The position numbers and the translations under genes were made by a program. Under the pieces are notes generated by a model. It did not search any database, was not told where the DNA came from, and saw nothing but the letters and a program-made list of their open reading frames with translations. Below are positions 50,692-59,961 of a stretch of 64,000 nt of DNA, piece after piece. Position 1 is the stretch's first letter; each line of letters opens with the position of its first letter. Origin of the DNA: Aquimarina sp. MMG016 (GTDB taxonomy: Bacteria; Bacteroidota; Bacteroidia; Flavobacteriales; Flavobacteriaceae); NCBI RefSeq assembly GCF_018100805.1, contig NZ_JAGJEA010000009.1:1-64000 (forward strand). Direction: 5' to 3'.

Positions 50692-50699
50692 TATGTTTG
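50692..50699 (+). promoter_or_regulatory. -7 element of the BlaI/M56 operon
   Basis: TATGTTTG is an exact -7 consensus, 18 bases before the BlaI ATG at 50718. The expected -33 position falls inside the second operator (ends 50669), which contains TTAGTTG rather than TTTG. Confidence 0.6.
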
Positions 50700-50717
50700 T
50701 TTTGTAAAATTGATATA

Positions 50718-51077
50718 ATGCAAAAGTTAGCCAAAAGAGAAGAACAAATCATGCAAAGTTTATGGAAGCTCGACAAAGCTTTCATAAAAGAAATTATTGA
50801 AGAACTCCCAGAACCAAAACCACATTATAATACAACTGCCACTATTGTTAAAATCTTAGAAGAAAAAGGTTTTATTAGTCACGTAGCTTATGGAAATAGT
50901 TTTCAGTATTACCCACTAGTCTCTAAGGATGAATATCAGAAAGAGGTATTAGGAGAAGTAGTTAATAATTACTTTGACAACTCTCCTATGGCTTTGGTAA
51001 AGTTCTTTGCTAAGGAAGAAAAAATCAATACACAAGAATTAGAAGAAATCATTCAATTGATAAAAAACAAAAAGTAA
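50718..51077 (+). CDS. BlaI/MecI/CopY family transcriptional repressor
   Basis: A winged-helix repressor of about 119 residues from the ATG at 50718 (MQKLAKREEQIMQSLWK, the family start); a TTG at 50697 would add seven residues but overlaps the promoter. HTH features are AFIKEIIEELPEPKPHYNTTATIVKILEEKGFI, split over helices 2-3, and the wing VAYGNSFQYYPLVSKDEY. The C-terminal helices dimerise and carry the peptide bond normally cut upon induction. The stop overlaps the M56 ATG by one base. It should repress this operon through the three operators upstream. Confidence 0.92.
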   Translation: MQKLAKREEQIMQSLWKLDKAFIKEIIEELPEPKPHYNTTATIVKILEEKGFISHVAYGNSFQYYPLVSKDEYQKEVLGEVVNNYFDNSPMALVKFFAKEEKINTQELEEIIQLIKNKK

Positions 51078-53809
51078 TGGATTATATCATTCATAGCTCA
51101 GCCTTAATAGGATTATCATATATTGTATATAAGTTTTTCCTTTCGAAAGAAACTTTTTACCATTTAAATAGATGGGTTCTTTTATCTTTAATTGTGCTCT
51201 CCTTTACTTTACCGTTTATAACTATCCCAGAAAGTTTGTCCTTTAAAAGTGTGGTAGTTGAGGAATCAACTGTTATAACAAAGAGTCCACCAGTTTCAGT
51301 TATAGAAACTCCTCAAAATACTGCAGTTATTGATGAAGTATCAACTAATGATTCACCATCAATTACTACAAGCCATATCAGTACTAATTTAGATTGGAAA
51401 ACAATCCTTGTATACATTTATGTATTAGGAATTATGGTATTCGGTGTACATTTTCTAATCCAATTAGGAGTTTTATTATACCGAATCATAAAATATCCAA
51501 CTATAGAAGTTGATGACTATAAAATCATCGAAACCAATAAAAAACATGCCCCCTACTCTTTCTGGAATCGAATATTCATGAATCCCAGCCAATATAACCC
51601 AGACACTTATTTGCAGATTCTAAAACATGAACAAATGCATATCAAAGGAAAACACAGTATTGATATGCTTTTAGTTGAGTGTTTAGTGATGTTACAATGG
51701 TTCAATCCTTTTGCTTGGTTATATCGAAAAGCTATTGATAACAATCTTGAATATTTGACCGATGAAAGTATGCTTACTATTGGTGAGGATAAAGAGGTCT
51801 ATCAAATGAATCTTTTAAAAGTCTCAACTCCTAATATGCCTACAGGCTTGGCAACAAGTTACAATCAATCATTTCTCAAAAAACGAATACTTATGATGAA
51901 TTCTAAAAAATCGACAGCAAAATCAGGATGGAAATACCTAATCATTATTCCATTACTAGCACTTACGGTATTTTCTTTTAATCCGGTTAAACCAAGTACC
52001 TCTCTTGTAGTAGCTAATGAAAAAGAACCCGAAAACATGATCCTAAACCCTGAAAAACAAAATATAGTTTCTGAAGCCGATGGAGATTTTACCAGAGGGG
52101 TTTGGGATGCTGAAGTTGGTGGCGGAAAATTATGTATAATGTTTAGAAGTGCAGAACCTCTGAAAAGAAATTTCTGGTCTACGACAAGATGTTATGATCC
52201 TTCGTTTTTTGCCAATTTCCCAAAAGGAGATAAACAAAAGTTAGAGATCACCAGAGATGCTGGTACCATGACACTCATTGGTGAGTTTGATGGCAAAATT
52301 GGTGACGGGCGATATACATTTACTCCTAATACTAATTTTATCACTTCTTTGAAAAACTATGGTTTAAACGCTGATAACAATGACTTAGCACATTGCTTCT
52401 TAACTGATTTTGATACTACATACCTTGCCTATCTAAAAAAAGAAAACCTTTCCATAAATCAAGATGATTTTGAAGATATTATTCATAAATCATTATCTCT
52501 TGATAAACTAAAAATATACCGAAAAGAGTTAGCCAGGTTAGGGTACAACAGTTATACTATGGAAGAAGTTGCAAAGCTTAATCTATTTGATGTTGATGTT
52601 GCTTATATCTCTTTTATCAATAAAGTTAACAGTTCCAAAACATCATTGAAGAAAATCACCAAAGCCAAAATTCATAATCTCACTCCAGAGTTTATCAACT
52701 CATACAAAGACAATGGTTATGGTAGCATGTCCCTGGATGATTATATGAAGCTAAAAATTCATAATGTAACTCCGGATTATATAGCATCTTTTAAGAAAGA
52801 AGGATATACAAATATCTCTGTAAAAGACGCTAAGAATCTAAAAATCCATAATGTATCACCAAAATACATTCAGTCTTGGAAAAGTATCGGATATAATAAT
52901 ATTACACTTAAAGAAGCCAAAGAATTAAAAATTCATAATGTTACACCAGGATACATTAACAGCTTTAAAAAAATAGGATACCCAAACATAACACTACAGG
53001 AAGCGAAAAAACTGAAAATTCATAATGTAACTGCGGAACTCATTACATCATACAAAAATGCCGGACAAACTAATCTTTCATTAAAAGAGGCGATTAAGTT
53101 AAAAATTCACAATGTAACTCCAGGTCAAGTTAAAGCAACTTCTGGTTATTCTTCTAGCTCTACTAGTAACTCAGGAAAAGGCTATCAAGAAACTCAGCAA
53201 ACACCCAATGATTTCATAAAAGCATTTAAAGCCCTTGGGTATGAAAATATTGAAGTAGATGATATCATCTCTCTTAAAATTCATAATGTAACACCAGAAT
53301 TCATAAAAAGATATCACAATGCAGGATACAAAAACATTCCTTTAGATGATGTCGTAGGATTAAAAATTCATAATGTAACACCAGATTTTATTGATACTTT
53401 CAAAAAGGCAGGATATAAGAACATTTCCTTAGAAGATGCTATGTCTTTAAAAATTCATAATGTTTCTCCCGACACAGCTTCAGCATATACTAAAATTGGA
53501 TATAACAACCTTACTATAGACGATCTAATGTCTCTAAAGATTCATAACGTATCACCAGAATTCATAAAAGAATTTAAGAAGACTCGGTTTGGCAATCTTC
53601 CATTAGATGATATTATATCGTTTAAAATTCATAATGTAACTCCAGGGTTTGTGAAGCCTTTTGAAGATTTAGGATACAAAAATATTACAGCGGATCAAGC
53701 TATGAGTCTTAAAATTCATAATGTAACTCCAGAATTTGTAAAATCTTTAAAAGATCAGGATCCAGATATATCGCTTGAGCAAGCAACCAGAATAAAAATT
53801 CATTTTTAA
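51077..53809 (+). CDS. M56 (BlaR1-like) membrane metallopeptidase with KIHNVTP repeat tail
   Basis: A 910-residue membrane protein. Residues 1-302 are an M56 peptidase with helices at about 5-20, 32-50, 110-138 and 285-302, and the zinc motif HEQMH (184-188) with NLEYLTDE supplying a third ligand. M56 proteins sense a signal and cut BlaI-type repressors. Residues about 335-530 are soluble; from 531 to 910 follow about 12 copies of a 29-residue repeat based on KIHNVTPxFIxxFKxxGY, NIxLDDAxxL, one copy interrupted by a Ser/Gly-rich linker. The tail is predicted to be periplasmic and could be the sensor. It overlaps BlaI by one base. Confidence 0.88.
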   Translation: MDYIIHSSALIGLSYIVYKFFLSKETFYHLNRWVLLSLIVLSFTLPFITIPESLSFKSVVVEESTVITKSPPVSVIETPQNTAVIDEVSTNDSPSITTSHISTNLDWKTILVYIYVLGIMVFGVHFLIQLGVLLYRIIKYPTIEVDDYKIIETNKKHAPYSFWNRIFMNPSQYNPDTYLQILKHEQMHIKGKHSIDMLLVECLVMLQWFNPFAWLYRKAIDNNLEYLTDESMLTIGEDKEVYQMNLLKVSTPNMPTGLATSYNQSFLKKRILMMNSKKSTAKSGWKYLIIIPLLALTVFSFNPVKPSTSLVVANEKEPENMILNPEKQNIVSEADGDFTRGVWDAEVGGGKLCIMFRSAEPLKRNFWSTTRCYDPSFFANFPKGDKQKLEITRDAGTMTLIGEFDGKIGDGRYTFTPNTNFITSLKNYGLNADNNDLAHCFLTDFDTTYLAYLKKENLSINQDDFEDIIHKSLSLDKLKIYRKELARLGYNSYTMEEVAKLNLFDVDVAYISFINKVNSSKTSLKKITKAKIHNLTPEFINSYKDNGYGSMSLDDYMKLKIHNVTPDYIASFKKEGYTNISVKDAKNLKIHNVSPKYIQSWKSIGYNNITLKEAKELKIHNVTPGYINSFKKIGYPNITLQEAKKLKIHNVTAELITSYKNAGQTNLSLKEAIKLKIHNVTPGQVKATSGYSSSSTSNSGKGYQETQQTPNDFIKAFKALGYENIEVDDIISLKIHNVTPEFIKRYHNAGYKNIPLDDVVGLKIHNVTPDFIDTFKKAGYKNISLEDAMSLKIHNVSPDTASAYTKIGYNNLTIDDLMSLKIHNVSPEFIKEFKKTRFGNLPLDDIISFKIHNVTPGFVKPFEDLGYKNITADQAMSLKIHNVTPEFVKSLKDQDPDISLEQATRIKIHF
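52667..53806 (+). repeat. coding tandem repeats, 87-bp period
   Basis: This DNA encodes the KIHNVTP repeats of the M56 protein. The 87-bp unit starts with AAAATTCATAATGT in most copies; thirteen starts are countable, the last (KIHF) truncated by the stop. The sixth unit is longer because of an inserted linker at about 53140-53210. Nucleotide similarity between units suggests recent duplication or homogenisation. Confidence 0.85.
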
Positions 53810-54221: not shown

Positions 54222-55124
54222 TTATTTATGCAACCCTATTTGTCGATGTATTCTGAGTGAATTATCTTTTTCTCTACGCCAATATGAAATGCCGGTTCCT
54301 GCAGCATTTCCGGAAAATCCAGAAGCTGTCCATTCTACATAGAATCCACCATATTTGATGTAACCATCTCCTACTTTATCATATGCATAGGTCATCAACT
54401 CCAGAGCATCTATTTTTGCCGGATTATGATAATATGCTTTATAGTGATCTAACAAAACAGACTTTCCTGTTTTAATCGTATCTGCAAATGGCAAGTACAT
54501 TGCATCATCTGTATATGCATCAGCGGTTTTTTCGGGGATTCTTGCAAATACGTTACTCTTACCCAAAGTTGAGTAGGCATCTAATTCTCTTGGAATTGTA
54601 ATAGCTTTAGGTTCAGCGATACTAGCCTCTGAGACAAAGAGCAAAGTAGGATCATCGATACGCTTTAAATATCCAAATGCTTCTGCACGTATGGTTAGTT
54701 TTCCGGTTACATTCTTTTTCCAAACATTAAGATATTTACCTTCTAATTTTTCTGAGTTTTCAAAAACCTTGGTAAACAATCCTATCTCAATAATTTTGTC
54801 AGTAAATTCTAAAATATCTACGGTTTGCCTATGATATTCTTTGATATTCTGTCTGGCAAATATGGTATCATAGTATATTTTAATATTATCATTATTTACT
54901 ATTAGCGGATTGTAATCTGTCATTAACAAAGATTCTTGATCATAAAGATCACGTATGGTTTCAAACGATCTTGTCTTTGCTGCATTACTTATTTTTTGAT
55001 TGTATTGAAGTAAAAGGTCTTCTACTGTTTCTGATTGTTCAACTTTATCAACTTTATTACTTTTTGAGTTTTCGCAAGCTAATAGTGTTATTAATACAAT
55101 CGCTAAGAATATATATTGCTTCAT
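54222..55124 (-). CDS. lipoprotein with two NTF2/SnoaL-like domains
   Basis: A 300-residue predicted lipoprotein (lipobox LITLLAC). Two NTF2-like cones can be discerned, about 40-150 and 180-300. They share a layout with the protein at 56748-57686: LLLQYNQKISNAAKTRSFETIRDLYDQES, a middle segment GKYLNVWKK, and a C-terminal GTGISYWRREKDNSLRIHRQIG. No catalytic pair is evident. It is the last gene of a leftward operon (57686 to 54222). The likely location is the periplasmic face of a membrane. Role unknown. Confidence 0.75.
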   Translation of the reverse strand: MKQYIFLAIVLITLLACENSKSNKVDKVEQSETVEDLLLQYNQKISNAAKTRSFETIRDLYDQESLLMTDYNPLIVNNDNIKIYYDTIFARQNIKEYHRQTVDILEFTDKIIEIGLFTKVFENSEKLEGKYLNVWKKNVTGKLTIRAEAFGYLKRIDDPTLLFVSEASIAEPKAITIPRELDAYSTLGKSNVFARIPEKTADAYTDDAMYLPFADTIKTGKSVLLDHYKAYYHNPAKIDALELMTYAYDKVGDGYIKYGGFYVEWTASGFSGNAAGTGISYWRREKDNSLRIHRQIGLHK

Positions 55125-55155
55125 TATTTTACTATTTTTAAATTCTGAATTTTGT

Positions 55156-55623
55156 TTAAGAAGTCATATTAAAAATCACTTTCCAGATTTTCAAAGAATT
55201 ATCTTCCATCCTTCTGAAAACAAATAGATTTTTGGTTTCAAACCTATTGAATGCATTGTTATTAATGGGATAAAAGGTCCCTGTCACTTTACCATGCATC
55301 ACCACAACCTTTTCAAAAGAATGCATTTCAACTATTTCGTGCTTCATATCGACACATCCGTATTGCTTTTCGTTATTGATATGTTCTATCAATTCAGTTT
55401 TATTAGTAATTGCAGAATGATTAGGCGCCATATGAACTAAATCATCAACCCAAACCTCCATTTTATCTTCGGTTGATACGGTAACGTCATCCAATACTTC
55501 TAAAACCATCTGCACTAATTTTTCATCTTGTTCTTTAGAATAATTGTTGGTTTCTAAATGATTTTTACATTGTATGCATAGTAACATAGTTGTTATAACT
55601 ACAGAGAGATGTCTAACTTTCAT
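55156..55623 (-). CDS. single-domain NTF2/DUF4440-like lipoprotein
   Basis: A 155-residue lipoprotein (signal ending LLCIQC). One NTF2-like domain is visible with VLDDVTVSTEDKMEVWVDDLVHMAPNH near the start and NLFVFRRMEDNSLKIWKVIFNM at the end, a pattern also seen in its operon neighbours. 22 bases separate it from the upstream esterase-like gene, and 31 bases from the downstream gene. No catalytic residues can be assigned. Confidence 0.75.
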   Translation of the reverse strand: MKVRHLSVVITTMLLCIQCKNHLETNNYSKEQDEKLVQMVLEVLDDVTVSTEDKMEVWVDDLVHMAPNHSAITNKTELIEHINNEKQYGCVDMKHEIVEMHSFEKVVVMHGKVTGTFYPINNNAFNRFETKNLFVFRRMEDNSLKIWKVIFNMTS

Positions 55624-55645
55624 TTTCTTGTGATTTAATAGCTAG

Positions 55646-56731
55646 TTAAAACTTCAGGTGCTCGTTTAAAAATGGCAGGACTCTTTTGGCAATACGTCCG
55701 TCTTCTCCCCAATATTTATTCCAGGGATCTCCAACAAATTCCTCACCTATGTGCTCCACACCTATATCCATTAATTTTTTACTAAATCTGCGATTAGAAA
55801 TCACATGTGCCTGTGTTTGATCAAATCTGGCCCAGTCAAATGCAATTGCTTTTAGGTTTCTTAAATTATCGGCGTATTCATCTAGTCTTTCATCTAAATG
55901 AAACCCTTTTTGTTCCTTTCTAACATTTTTTGGGTTCAGTTTTAATGTACCATTTTCATCCTTTTCGAATAAAAAATCGCAATACAATGGAGGTCTATTA
56001 GAGTTTGGTAAAAATGCTTGACAAACACCGGTAAAAATTTTTGCCATCACATTTTCATTTATATCTTCATAAGACTTGGCAGCGTGTATCTTCTGCCAAT
56101 CAATGTCTAACGAAACTCTTGGCAGATAACCAGAACCTGTAGCTACCGGATGCAGTGCATACACTACACTAAAAATATTGGGATACTGCATTCCTACTGC
56201 TAATGCTCCTCGCCCACCCATAAAATGGCCTATAACAGCCCTACTACTCTTATCAGGAATTGTTCTATAATTTTGATCAATATATGCTACCAATTCCTTG
56301 CTTATAAAATCTAACCAATGACCACTAGTGCTAGAGTTTTCGAAAAAACTTCCTATAGTGGGAGATGTAAAATCTGCAACTACAAAAATGAACTCTTTGG
56401 ATCGGTTTTCAGAAATACTTTTATCTATAATTTCTGGTGTTTTATGATCAGAAACTATGTGATTTGGATTTTCAAATAAGCTATGTAAATAATAGACGAC
56501 CGGATACTTATTTTTTGATTGAGAATAACCTGGAGGAAGATAAATTTTGATGTTTCGTTTTGTATCTAAGTCTATTTTATTATTTGCTAAAATTTTGGAT
56601 TCTATGGTGTCACTAATTATTGTTCCTTTTATGGTATACTGGGCATACGTATTAGTAATAGAGAATATCATAAGAAAACATAGCAATGATACTCTGAATA
56701 ATAAAGTTGAATATTTGATGGAGTATTTCAT
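55646..56731 (-). CDS. exported alpha/beta-hydrolase-fold (esterase D-like) protein lacking the nucleophile Ser
   Basis: A 361-residue exported protein (signal ending NTYAQ) of the putative esterase family. The start IKIYLPPGYSQSKNKYPVVYYLHS and the surroundings of the nucleophile elbow are typical. But the elbow reads GHFMGG, not GHSMGG: residue 170 is Phe (codon TTT, 56224-56222). A single C-to-T change from TCT would give this. The C-terminal segment (EFVGDPWNKYWGEDGR) shows no obvious Gly-His pair. The enzyme is probably inactive as a serine esterase. It lies inside the NTF2-like operon. Confidence 0.8.
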   Translation of the reverse strand: MKYSIKYSTLLFRVSLLCFLMIFSITNTYAQYTIKGTIISDTIESKILANNKIDLDTKRNIKIYLPPGYSQSKNKYPVVYYLHSLFENPNHIVSDHKTPEIIDKSISENRSKEFIFVVADFTSPTIGSFFENSSTSGHWLDFISKELVAYIDQNYRTIPDKSSRAVIGHFMGGRGALAVGMQYPNIFSVVYALHPVATGSGYLPRVSLDIDWQKIHAAKSYEDINENVMAKIFTGVCQAFLPNSNRPPLYCDFLFEKDENGTLKLNPKNVRKEQKGFHLDERLDEYADNLRNLKAIAFDWARFDQTQAHVISNRRFSKKLMDIGVEHIGEEFVGDPWNKYWGEDGRIAKRVLPFLNEHLKF

Positions 56732-56747
56732 TTTATCGAATATTAGG

Positions 56748-57686
56748 TTAATAGTTATAATCGTAAGTAGCGATTTGTCTTATGATTTTAAGTGACCCAT
56801 TGGGTTCTCTTCTCCAAATCTTAATACCTTTTCCTGTGCTTATTCCTGAATATTCGTCATTGCGCCAATTGGCTATATGACTGGCATAATTCACAACATA
56901 TGTCCCTAAATCATCAATATGGTCGTTCCTGATATCTAATTTCTCGAAAATTGGTAGTTCGGCAACATGTGCTTCCAGAAATGTATCCAATGATTTTTTA
57001 TCTCTATATATTGGTTTGTAACTAAACATTGCAATAACATCATTCGCATATAGTTGTGACCATATTTTATGATCACCTTGTGAAATGAACTCTTCCATGA
57101 ATTGATTCAACGCTGCCAGTTCAAAACGTATGTCATTGTCAACTGGTAGATGTCCCTGATACGCCAGAACAGTACCAGGAACGTTATCGAATTTTAGGTG
57201 TTCGGTTAGGTCTGTATGATGATTATAATTCCATATTTCTGAAATTAAAGAAAGTGATTCTCCTTCTTTCTTCCAGATGTCGATGTATTTCCCTTTGAGT
57301 TCTTCTATTTGTACTGAATTCTTCAACCTAACTTTCATACTAAAAGTTCCTAAGACACAAAGCTGAGCGCCCAAATCCAGTGTTTCTATCTGTCCTCTTT
57401 TATATTCCAAAATATCAAATCGATCAAAAAATGCTTTATGATAGATGGTTGCGTTCTCTTTTCCTAAAAGTGTTTTTTGAAAAGCCGGCATTAACCGAAT
57501 ATCTTTATCATAATACTTTACAAAAAGTTGGGGATCTGCATCCTGTATTCCTTTATTATAATCAACAATGAATTTATTAAGGTATGCTTCAATTTCATTA
57601 GGTATTGATTTCGTTTGAGCGACAACACTCTGCATACTCGCGAAAATTAAAGTTAGCAGGAGAAAGTGGTTTCTAATATATCTCAT
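56748..57686 (-). CDS. exported protein with two NTF2/SnoaL-like domains
   Basis: A 312-residue exported protein (signal ending MQSVVAQT). Two NTF2-like cones (about 30-145 and 185-305) are seen, with the repeated elements LKGKYIDIWKKEGESLSLISEIW and STGKGIKIWRREPNGSLKIIRQIA. It begins the leftward operon; the esterase-like gene follows after 16 bases. It resembles the protein at 54222-55124 in both halves, so they are probably paralogs. Divergent from the histidine kinase gene across a region with LytTR-like repeats. Confidence 0.75.
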   Translation of the reverse strand: MRYIRNHFLLLTLIFASMQSVVAQTKSIPNEIEAYLNKFIVDYNKGIQDADPQLFVKYYDKDIRLMPAFQKTLLGKENATIYHKAFFDRFDILEYKRGQIETLDLGAQLCVLGTFSMKVRLKNSVQIEELKGKYIDIWKKEGESLSLISEIWNYNHHTDLTEHLKFDNVPGTVLAYQGHLPVDNDIRFELAALNQFMEEFISQGDHKIWSQLYANDVIAMFSYKPIYRDKKSLDTFLEAHVAELPIFEKLDIRNDHIDDLGTYVVNYASHIANWRNDEYSGISTGKGIKIWRREPNGSLKIIRQIATYDYNY

Positions 57687-57830
57687 AGGTTCATTTTTAG
57701 TGGTTTTTCAACTAAAATATTCTGAAAACAAAGACATTAATGATTAGAATTGATAAAACTCAGACTACAATTGATGATCCGCAAAATTTTAATACTTACA
57801 GCTATAATTCTGAATAAAGTCGGATCTAGA

Positions 57831-57890
57831 GTGGTTCGTCAATAATTTGAATATGTTCGTCAATAAATCAAGGGGATCGTATCCGTTTAA
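57831..57890. promoter_or_regulatory. LytTR/AlgR-like direct repeats in the divergent promoter region
   Basis: GTTCGTCAATAA occurs twice, at 57834-57845 and 57855-57866. The two 9-mers GTGGTTCGT (57831-57839) and TATGTTCGT (57852-57860) are 12 bases apart, 21 bp start to start, the spacing known for LytTR direct repeats, and they resemble the AlgR core CCGTTCGTC. A weaker third copy, TCCGTTTAA, is at 57882-57890. I infer binding by the LytTR regulator at 59104-59838, acting on its own operon and perhaps on the divergent one. Confidence 0.65.
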
Positions 57891-57932
57891 AAACTATTTT
57901 GTTATTTTACTAAGTCTTAAGTAATACGTTTT

Positions 57933-59093
57933 ATGCAGATAGCATTGGATACTATCAAAAGTTCTAAGATACTTGTCGGTCTCTACCGGTACAAAGCACA
58001 TCACCTCTTATTTTGGTTTGTGTATCACTATATGTGGTGGGCCATTGGGATTGGTAGTGCTAAAGAAGCTGCAATCAATATTTTCTTTTCGCCATATACT
58101 ACTAAATTTCTATTCTATTTTATTTTTCAGGCGGCGGCTGTTTATTTCAATTTATATTATTTGATTCCAAAGTATTTAGAGAAAAGAAAATACCTTACCT
58201 ATCTGTTTTTTTTCGGTTTAACTATATTAATTACCGTATTAATTATTACTTCCGGATATTTCGTTACGGCTTACGTTGCTAATGCTACAGTTACCGAATT
58301 ATTTGGTGATCAAACTTTTATGAAGTTGGTAAAATCTAGCCCTTTGTCATCTACATTAGCAAGTATGACACTAGCAATGAGCATCAAACTGGCCAAAAAC
58401 TGGATTAAATCGCAACAAAGACAGCAGTTATTAGAAAAGGAAAAGGTAGAAACTGAACTAAAATTTTTGAGATCTCAATTCAATCCTCACTTTTTATTCA
58501 ATACGATCAATTCGATTTTTGTATTGATTCATAAAAACCCGGATATGGCTTCAGAATCTCTTGCCAATTTTTCGGATCTTATGCGTTATCAGTTATATGA
58601 ATGTAATGAAGCAAAAATTCCTCTGAATAAGGAAATTAATTACCTAAAAAACTTTATTGAGCTAGGAAAACTCAGACTTGATAACACTGTCAAAGTTACT
58701 ACTAACATTGAGGAGCAAATCTATGGTGATGTTTCTATAGCGCCTTTTATTTTGATGCCTTTTGTAGAAAATGCTTTTAAACACGTATCACAAAATCAAG
58801 ATCAAAAAAATTGGATTTCTATACATTTACGTTTTTCTGAAGAAAAAGTTGTATTCAAAGTAGAGAATACTGTAATTAAACACACCGAAAATAATGTTGA
58901 TGATCTTATGAAGGACAGTGGAATAGGTTTAAAAAATGTACAAAGAAGGTTGGATCTAGTATATCCTGATCAGTATGAGCTATTCATTGAAAAAACTAGA
59001 GAGATATACAAAATAAAGCTTGAATTACAATTAAATGCAATTCCAGTTTTAACCGAACAACCTATTGTTCCTGTAACCTCATTACAATCTTAA
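57933..59093 (+). CDS. LytS-type sensor histidine kinase
   Basis: A 386-residue inner-membrane kinase of the His_kinase/HATPase LytS class. About four helices (30-150: residues near 25-40, 58-78, 88-115, 138-155) precede the kinase region. The phospho-acceptor is His186 in FNPHFLFNTINSI; the ATP-binding N box is FILMPFVENAFKHV, and the G box is SGIGLKNVQRRLDLVYP. No extracytoplasmic sensor domain is present, so it senses in or near the membrane. The response-regulator gene follows after 10 bases. Confidence 0.92.
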   Translation: MQIALDTIKSSKILVGLYRYKAHHLLFWFVYHYMWWAIGIGSAKEAAINIFFSPYTTKFLFYFIFQAAAVYFNLYYLIPKYLEKRKYLTYLFFFGLTILITVLIITSGYFVTAYVANATVTELFGDQTFMKLVKSSPLSSTLASMTLAMSIKLAKNWIKSQQRQQLLEKEKVETELKFLRSQFNPHFLFNTINSIFVLIHKNPDMASESLANFSDLMRYQLYECNEAKIPLNKEINYLKNFIELGKLRLDNTVKVTTNIEEQIYGDVSIAPFILMPFVENAFKHVSQNQDQKNWISIHLRFSEEKVVFKVENTVIKHTENNVDDLMKDSGIGLKNVQRRLDLVYPDQYELFIEKTREIYKIKLELQLNAIPVLTEQPIVPVTSLQS

Positions 59094-59103
59094 AAAGAAG
59101 ATC

Positions 59104-59838
59104 ATGGTTTTAAAATGTATTGTAATTGATGACGAGCCTTTAGCCAGAGAATGTATTTCTAATTACATCAAAGAAGTGGATTTTCTGGAACTGCAAGGAT
59201 CTTGTAACAATCCTTTAGAGATTACAAAAATTAAAAATTCGCATGAGGCAGATCTTCTTTTTTTAGACATACAAATGCCTAGAATGAATGGTATTGAATT
59301 TTTAAAATCTATGAAATCAAAACCGATGGTAGTTATTACCACTGCTTTTCCGAACTATGCTTTGGATGGTTTTGATTTGGATGTTATGGATTATCTGTTA
59401 AAGCCTATTACGTTTACACGTTTTTTTAAAGCAGTTTGCAAAGTAAAAGAACAGCATCTTTTGATACAAAACAAACCTGGAGTTACTCAAAATCAAGAGA
59501 ATTCGAAACCAGATCATGTGTTTATAAAATGCGAGAATACGTATAAAAAAATATATTTTGATGATATTCTATTTATCAAGTCTATGCAAAACTATGTTGG
59601 TTTTCACACTACCGATGGAAAGAAGCACCTATCCTTAATTCCGCTTAAGGAAGTAGCTAAACAACTAGATTCAGAAATTTTTATGCAAGTTCACAAGTCA
59701 TTTATTGTTTGTATTCCTAAAATTGAAGCCGTTGAAAAAGAAGGAATAATCATTGGTTCTCATTACATTCCGTTAGGTCGTAATTATAGAACATCCATTA
59801 TGAAAAAAATAGTCAATGATAGAATACTGAAGCGGTAA
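59104..59838 (+). CDS. LytTR-type response regulator
   Basis: A 244-residue regulator. Residues 1-120 are a receiver domain with acid pocket DDE (9-11), phospho-acceptor Asp55 in FLDIQMP and Lys100 in YLLKPI. Residues about 145-244 are a LytTR DNA-binding domain (FIKCENTYKKIYFDDILFIKS, MQNYVGFHTTDG, VHKSFIVCIPKIEAV, IPLGRNYR). It should act with the LytS-like kinase directly upstream. Candidate binding sites lie in the divergent promoter region at 57831-57890. Confidence 0.93.
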   Translation: MVLKCIVIDDEPLARECISNYIKEVDFLELQGSCNNPLEITKIKNSHEADLLFLDIQMPRMNGIEFLKSMKSKPMVVITTAFPNYALDGFDLDVMDYLLKPITFTRFFKAVCKVKEQHLLIQNKPGVTQNQENSKPDHVFIKCENTYKKIYFDDILFIKSMQNYVGFHTTDGKKHLSLIPLKEVAKQLDSEIFMQVHKSFIVCIPKIEAVEKEGIIIGSHYIPLGRNYRTSIMKKIVNDRILKR

Positions 59839-59887
59839 TTTTTCAAACTATAATCTACTATTTAATGAATATGTGATTAAGAAAATA

Positions 59888-59922
59888 AAAAGGCCGCTAA
59901 CTCCCATTTTTAGCGGCCTTTT
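59888..59922. terminator. bidirectional terminator between the LytTR and gltD genes
   Basis: AAAAGGCCGCTAA (59888-59900) and TTAGCGGCCTTTT (59910-59922) form a perfect 13-bp stem with a 9-base loop. The symmetrical A/T tails fit termination of both convergent genes. Confidence 0.88.
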
Positions 59923-59961
59923 ATTAACACCTAATATTAAATACTAGATCACATTAACTAA

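Follow-up and report, generated by a model that had tools for sequence, protein, structure and literature searches.

A conserved LytTR two-component locus divergent from predicted exported NTF2-like proteins and a pseudo-esterase in Aquimarina

The DNA analysed here (the window) comprises 64,000 nucleotides of Aquimarina sp. MMG016 (contig NZ_JAGJEA010000009.1, positions 1 to 64,000), whose genome amounts to 5.35 Mb in 33 contigs. Towards its right end, a LytS-type sensor kinase and a LytTR response regulator are encoded divergently from an operon for three NTF2-like proteins (N1, N2 and N3) and a protein with the fold of CE1 esterases (EST). The genes and the repeats between them, with the evidence for each in brackets, are as follows.

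54222..55124, minus strand: N3, predicted exported and lipoprotein-like, two NTF2/DUF4440 domains (profile, alignment, model, structure matches)
55156..55623, minus strand: N2, single NTF2/SnoaL-like domain with a conserved N-terminal Cys (own profile match weak)
55646..56731, minus strand: EST, predicted exported CE1-fold pseudo-esterase with Phe170, Pro336/Trp337 and Asp304 (profile, alignments, model, substitution rates)
56748..57686, minus strand: N1, encoded by the first operon gene, predicted exported, two NTF2/DUF4440 domains (profile, genus orthologues)
57749..57778, minus strand: cargo-side repeat pair ATCATCAAT-N12-TTTATCAAT, directed towards N1 (pair in 11 of 11 orthologous spacers)
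57835..57864, plus strand: kinase-side repeat pair TTCGTCAAT-N12-TTCGTCAAT, directed towards the kinase gene (matched exactly nowhere else in the genome; present in strict form in 10 of 11 orthologous spacers)
57933..59093, plus strand: LytS-type sensor histidine kinase (profile, kinase homologues, tree)
59104..59838, plus strand: LytTR response regulator (profile)

A check of the open reading frames (ORFs) of the window placed all six at these coordinates, and Pfam matches returned the domains that a preliminary description, made from the letters alone, had named. The leftward operon (57686-54222) has the order N1-EST-N2-N3 with intergenic gaps of 16, 22 and 31 bp, while the divergent spacer between N1 and the kinase gene measures 246 bp. 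Orthologues within the genus share 63-84% identity for N1, 66-79% for EST and 75-85% for the kinase, and this conservation indicates that the six ORFs are real genes. The median ratio of nonsynonymous to synonymous substitution rates (dN/dS) of the module genes ranged from 0.05 (regulator) up to 0.22 (N2), with 0.034 for the control gene gltD; pairs with dS of at least 3 and the regulator of G409 were left out, the latter on account of its start coordinate and not because the gene is broken (G and L numbers are our own designations). Export signals, which had been proposed for all four cargo proteins, were judged by eye from the sequences. N1 and EST have hydrophobic N-termini ending in VVAQ and TYAQ, respectively, and a lipobox-like [AG]C is present in all eight block-type rows of the N3 alignment. 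The proposal holds less well for N2, where a Cys closes the hydrophobic N-terminus in 10 of 10 sequences but is often preceded by Gln, making the lipobox atypical.

The kinase matched His_kinase (PF06580, E = 1.1e-22), and the adjoining regulator matched both Response_reg (E = 1.2e-18) and LytTR (E = 4.8e-15). This pairing of a PF06580 kinase with a receiver-LytTR regulator is typical of LytS/LytTR two-component systems, which, in an excerpt from PMC5552118, include BtsS/BtsR and YpdA/YpdB of E. coli. The regulator resembles BtsR distantly (118.5 bits against a cut-off of 246). The locus further shares with these systems repeats at the target promoter that are paired at the LytTR distance; unlike BtsS/BtsR and YpdA/YpdB, it has a putative two-sided operator preceding an operon for NTF2 proteins and a pseudo-esterase. 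LytTR Regulatory Systems were considered as a second class; there, the regulator lacks a receiver domain and its partner is a membrane protein that is not a kinase. We rejected this assignment, as receiver domain and kinase are both present here. The excerpts of PMC6193735 portray such systems as regulator and membrane protein, with no kinase, and name HdrRM and BrsRM as gene pairs with LytTR-type repeats at the regulator's own promoter. Repeats in that position are found in the present locus as well, which suggests autoregulation.

Alignment of the 11 orthologous spacers revealed two conserved blocks in opposite orientation, each a pair of 9-bp repeats separated by 12 bp and hence with a period of 21 bp. 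The LytTR-like site previously noted between the two units thus proved to comprise two pairs facing in opposite directions. Direct repeats of about 9 bp, about 12 bp apart, at the target promoter agree with published LytTR repeats, which in the excerpts of PMC6193735, the source of our spacing criterion, are mostly 12 bp apart. Among periods of 14-30, only 21 gave at least 10 of 11 matching bases, in 7 of the 11 orthologous spacers; among 15 spacers from relatives, four reached this level at period 21 and one at period 28. The motif TATTTT follows the cargo-side pair after 29 bp in all 11 spacers and the kinase-side pair after 30 bp in nine (31 bp in G410; no strict pair was found in G440). 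Within the 5.35 Mb genome, the kinase-side pattern has a single exact match. Allowing up to two mismatches, 18 genome matches were obtained, the cargo-side pair among them, compared with 9 for a reversed-pattern control, and a wide regulon with this motif was rejected on the basis of these counts. The spacers of G452, G401, G402, G439 and the second kinase copy of G441 reach 9-11 matches at 21 bp, with a weaker reversed pair visible in G452 and G402, and those of G218 and G416 reach 9 of 11 with other letters. No 21-bp pair at the 9/11 level was found in the spacers of G397, G400 and the second copy of G410. Since relatives show kinase-side-only pairs or none, the two-sided arrangement is limited to the 11 orthologues, in which a putative mirrored, LytTR-type operator is shared and conserved.

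EST matched the Esterase profile PF00756 (E = 7.4e-23), and its nearest relative was the soil esterase 8z91 (phmmer E = 3.7e-38; template modelling (TM) score 0.70, with an EST model of predicted local distance difference test (pLDDT) score 70.1). In overall sequence and in its alpha/beta-hydrolase fold, EST is thus a CE1 protein like 8z91 and the Bacteroides feruloyl esterases 7xrt and 5vol. Unlike these enzymes, every copy of its clade lacks the nucleophilic Ser and the catalytic His of the Ser-His-Asp triad, of which only Asp304 is kept. The Ser is replaced by Phe (Phe170) in a GxFxGG context in 12 of 12 aligned copies, and in the model (pLDDT only 70.1) Phe170 follows strand 164-169 and precedes helix 171-182, where the nucleophile is usually found. 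The His is likewise lost in 12 of 12 copies, its position being taken by Pro336 or Trp337, depending on gap placement. Among other CE1 homologues, Ser was kept in 7 of 7 and His was seen in 6 of 7, the remaining one (L013) aligning badly in the His region. A search of the phylum with EST gave matches in 14 of 395 genomes (its own, 12 others and G699). All 13 complete EST-homologous loci from the 12 others retain Ser and His, which places a dead EST clade beside an active one. The relative in G699 comes as two contig pieces, each holding about half (L202 1-504 and L203 11068-12935); it has lost both Ser and His and shares the motifs FENSSTSG and VATGSG with EST. It lies directly upstream of a 406-residue protein weakly matching the EST profile. 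The median dN/dS of EST was 0.108 (43 of 45 pairs, 10 sequences), which argues against decay. An active esterase was rejected because both catalytic residues are gone throughout the clade, and the earlier suspicion of a catalytically dead hydrolase is, at the level of residues, confirmed by this loss.

N1 matched DUF4440 in two stretches (E = 5e-12) and N3 in one (E = 1e-5), so that both pass the Pfam cut-off for membership among NTF2-like proteins. N2 alone does not (SnoaL_2, E = 0.046), while a fused relative scored 2.9e-4. The N3 model (pLDDT 90.1) consists of two NTF2 domains, and solved NTF2 folds matched both halves, the best being 3hx8 (Z = 17.8, root-mean-square deviation (rmsd) 2.3 over 123 residues). 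Fold and DUF4440 profile thus relate these proteins to ketosteroid-isomerase-like domains of the 3hx8 type, from which they differ in being arranged in tandem, predicted to be exported and encoded with a pseudo-esterase under a LytTR pair. The halves also matched designed vitamin-D binders (Z = 17.0-17.1) and many cyclase- or isomerase-like folds; the predicted fold is compatible with a binder and an enzyme alike. The NTF2 domains might accordingly be enzymes that work on a small molecule outside the cell, as isomerases, cyclases or hydrolases, and EST might be their partner or hold the substrate. The match of each N3 half to ketosteroid-isomerase-like folds speaks for such an enzyme set, as does the presence of the tandem epoxide hydrolases MonBI and Lsd19 among the best Foldseek E-values for N3. 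The top Foldseek rows were tandem proteins, namely an iota-carbonic anhydrase and polyether epoxide hydrolases, but these whole-length matches reached TM-scores of only 0.30-0.36, and the five invariant columns of the N3 alignment (G115, Y131, W135, G276 and R294) contain no catalytic pair evident by eye. We consider an enzyme set possible, though rather unlikely. Iota-carbonic anhydrase, whose structure 7c5x heads the Foldseek list, was rejected: HHHSS, which we take to be its motif, was not seen in N1 or N3 by eye, and a second structure comparison of 7c5x with N3 gave Z = 14.8 but an rmsd of 18.2.

To follow the module across genomes, we searched the genus, the family and the phylum. Of 66 genomes from the genus, 11 carry the N1-type block, and kinases of at least 75% identity occurred in exactly these 11. 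In the family, a double-NTF2 match was obtained in 6 of 397 sampled genomes, its own included, by a single-protein search and by a 25-row profile alike; the module is thus rare, and one of the six genomes (G317) has no kinase beside the double-NTF2 gene. In the phylum, 21 of 395 genomes reached 1e-12 in the profile search, 14 of them through about one domain only; the loci of these 14 lie outside the neighbourhood set, which comprises 23 loci with a double-NTF2 protein. A LytS-type kinase stands beside the cargo or one gene away from it in 17 of these 23, spread over four genera and one contig of a metagenome-assembled genome: the window, G443, G420, G440, G428, G445, G177, G409, G441, G410, G455, G459, G415, G211, G350, G218 and the metagenomic contig L032, which ends inside the kinase gene, so that its regulator is not seen. 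An amylase gene intervenes between kinase and N3 in G415, and EST lies between kinase and NTF2 genes in G459. The expectation that the LytTR pair is kept next to the homologues was therefore borne out for these loci and failed for the other six (G317, G759, G669, G619, G653 and G698; five genomes of g128 plus G698), whose double-NTF2 proteins resemble that of G317 and form a separate subfamily.

The content of the cargo operon varies. N3 is missing from the blocks of G445 and G177, and G445 carries in its place a protein that we call ACC. EST is absent from the loci of G211, G218, G350, G415 and G455, where ACC takes its place in the last; the NTF2 proteins are hence the constant part and EST an exchangeable one. 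For the same reason, the scaffold around a dead hydrolase that had been thought conceivable was not substantiated. Fusions of ACC also occur, with an N2-like domain in G459, G218 and G350, and with an N3-like pair in G211. The N-terminal part of its longer form resembles CBM20 in one of eight members (E = 0.0019, below the Pfam cut-off). The second part carries the motif NPFxKFxGEWTLKDDxW; a profile search matched it to no Pfam family, and it presumably is akin to the lipocalin-like DUF1579 proteins. A 188-residue form of ACC was observed within runs of small same-strand genes (L225 8270-8836 and L226 8044-8640). In L225, repeated sequences between the ORFs recall an integron-like cassette array; no search for an integrase was made.

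We then turned to the kinase. A tree of 34 kinases contained a supported group of 25 (100/99), made up of 16 NTF2-linked kinases and nine others, these being all further matches down to 44% identity; nine loci were fetched from the matches below 44%. Several branches are long (L032, G400 and G218). NTF2 linkage required 4 changes on the tree compared with 11.7 in shuffles, a count that speaks of clustering only. The nine include the second kinase copies of G441 and G410, the kinases of G416, G452, G401, G402 and G439, which stand beside small exported-looking proteins, and that of G400, which by eye adjoins a TonB-receptor-like gene. In G397, the kinase is without cargo and its flanking genes resemble those of G459 by eye; a tblastn search for cargo remnants at 0.01 in the DNA next to this kinase matched only the start of the kinase gene itself. 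In other genus genomes, kinases of the same clade were seen to diverge from the gene of an unrelated small protein, 171-194 residues long, that looks exported (L154 10702-11286, L155 8654-9172, L156 8555-9070 and L157 8399-8917). A second LytS/LytTR locus, with a kinase of another clade, diverges from genes for a cyclomaltodextrinase-like amylase and a PfkB-type kinase (L068 5149-11732, L227 6551-12263, L167 7705-12477 and L164 5402-10178). In G415 this amylase-PfkB operon includes both N3 and ACC and in G439 ACC alone; that of G430 and that on contig C3 of the Aquimarina sp. MMG016 genome contain neither.

From the kinase side, the link to NTF2 proteins is thus not obligatory. This matters for the idea of a co-receptor, in which the exported NTF2/EST proteins would bind a signal and present it to the kinase as part of the sensor. 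Kinase and cargo are tightly linked in the 11 N1-type genomes, exported binding folds stand beside a kinase in which no large extracellular domain is obvious (by eye), and the operator is two-sided, all of which would suit a co-receptor. Nine kinases of the same clade do without NTF2 cargo, however, and N3 and ACC of G415 occupy the operon of a different kinase clade, which lacks them in G430 and on contig C3. We hence regard a co-receptor as improbable and read the cargo as output, since clade kinases occur with other cargo or none. The same observations bear on the proposal of a single regulated module, which is upheld by the shared, conserved two-sided operator of LytTR type and qualified by kinases that stand with other cargo or none. 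Related kinases adjoining unrelated genes, the varying content of the blocks (N3 missing from two, EST from five) and the presence of ACC in G426 and G403 at sites with no kinase beside it could even indicate independent exported genes that merely neighbour a locally acting LytTR pair and share no function. The same parts return in other genera, newly combined and fused, and N3 and ACC are jointly present inside a different LytTR operon in G415; both observations make such a loose neighbourhood very improbable.

Taken together, we favour a LytTR two-component switch controlling a ligand-binding module that is exported and includes a pseudo-esterase, a proposal to which we assign about an even chance. 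Its regulatory half appears quite likely, while a binding module rather than a set of enzymes falls slightly short of even. The membrane kinase would sense a cue and phosphorylate the regulator, as the families suggest; the regulator would bind the two mirror-image repeat pairs observed in the shared spacer and activate both its own operon and N1-EST-N2-N3. The four products would be exported, N3 and probably N2 as lipoproteins, and the NTF2 pockets together with the dead CE1-fold protein would bind one or more ligands outside the cytoplasm. Judging from the cargo swaps, the NTF2/EST proteins would be output with no obligatory part in sensing. EST is read as a putative non-hydrolysing binding subunit because it is dead yet constrained, and because a CBM20-like protein replaces it in place. 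A carbohydrate, or an ester linked to one, is a possible ligand; the amylase operon of G415 with N3 and ACC is a further weak hint of a glycan link. Regulator, two-sided operator and exported pocket-rich cargo are read as one unit in the orthologues.

Several observations weigh against this proposal. NTF2 folds are often enzymes, such as ketosteroid isomerase or epoxide hydrolase. The orthologous spacers are related and hence do not constitute independent evidence. No 21-bp pair at the 9/11 level was found in the NTF2-linked spacers of G459 (two spacers), G211, G350 and L032, and in G452, G401, G402 and G439, with other cargo, the strict TCAAT pair was found only on the side of the kinase. Near the dead EST of G699, no kinase or NTF2 gene was seen on its two contig pieces. 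There is also no transporter gene within the N1-N3 operon that would make use of a bound ligand. A bolder version would make the inactivated carbohydrate-esterase clade a conserved non-hydrolysing receptor (or the seat of new chemistry). Together with tandem-NTF2 lipoproteins and interchangeable CBM20/lipocalin-like proteins, it would form a modular system that captures ligands on the cell surface without a transporter and exchanges its parts between promoters under LytTR control; we offer this version as a speculation that is more probably wrong than right.

Exported NTF2/SnoaL-like proteins and LytS/LytTR pairs without an assigned role are common in Bacteroidota. The present locus joins the two with an operator precise enough for a test in one experiment, and it offers a clean pair of dead and active sister esterase clades. 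A dead yet strongly conserved esterase next to exported pocket-forming proteins points to a module beyond the cell membrane that is dedicated to ligand binding, and regulator and operator suggest a chassis for loading different exported cargo. The single parts are of known kinds; as far as titles and the beginnings of abstracts show, no description of a LytTR pair combined with NTF2/DUF4440 proteins and a pseudo-esterase in Bacteroidota was found in the open-access literature (preprints excluded).

Beyond the regulator gene, a terminator-like inverted repeat (AAAAGGCCGCTAA / TTAGCGGCCTTTT, by eye) is located at 59885-59925 of the window, before the convergent gltD. The position of the module beside gltD is a presence/absence site: in G403 (L180 1-5843), gltD is directly followed by BlaR1, the module being absent at that place. 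On the other side of the module, window positions 50697-53809 (plus strand) encode a BlaI-type repressor and then a 910-residue BlaR1/M56 protein. We rejected this pair as part of the module, given that BlaR1 lies downstream of gltD in 10 of 16 gltD regions from genomes without the block at this site, compared through the first eight ORFs per locus. The C-terminal half of the BlaR1/M56 protein carries many repeats of a unit like LKIHNVTPEFIxxYKxxGYxNI.

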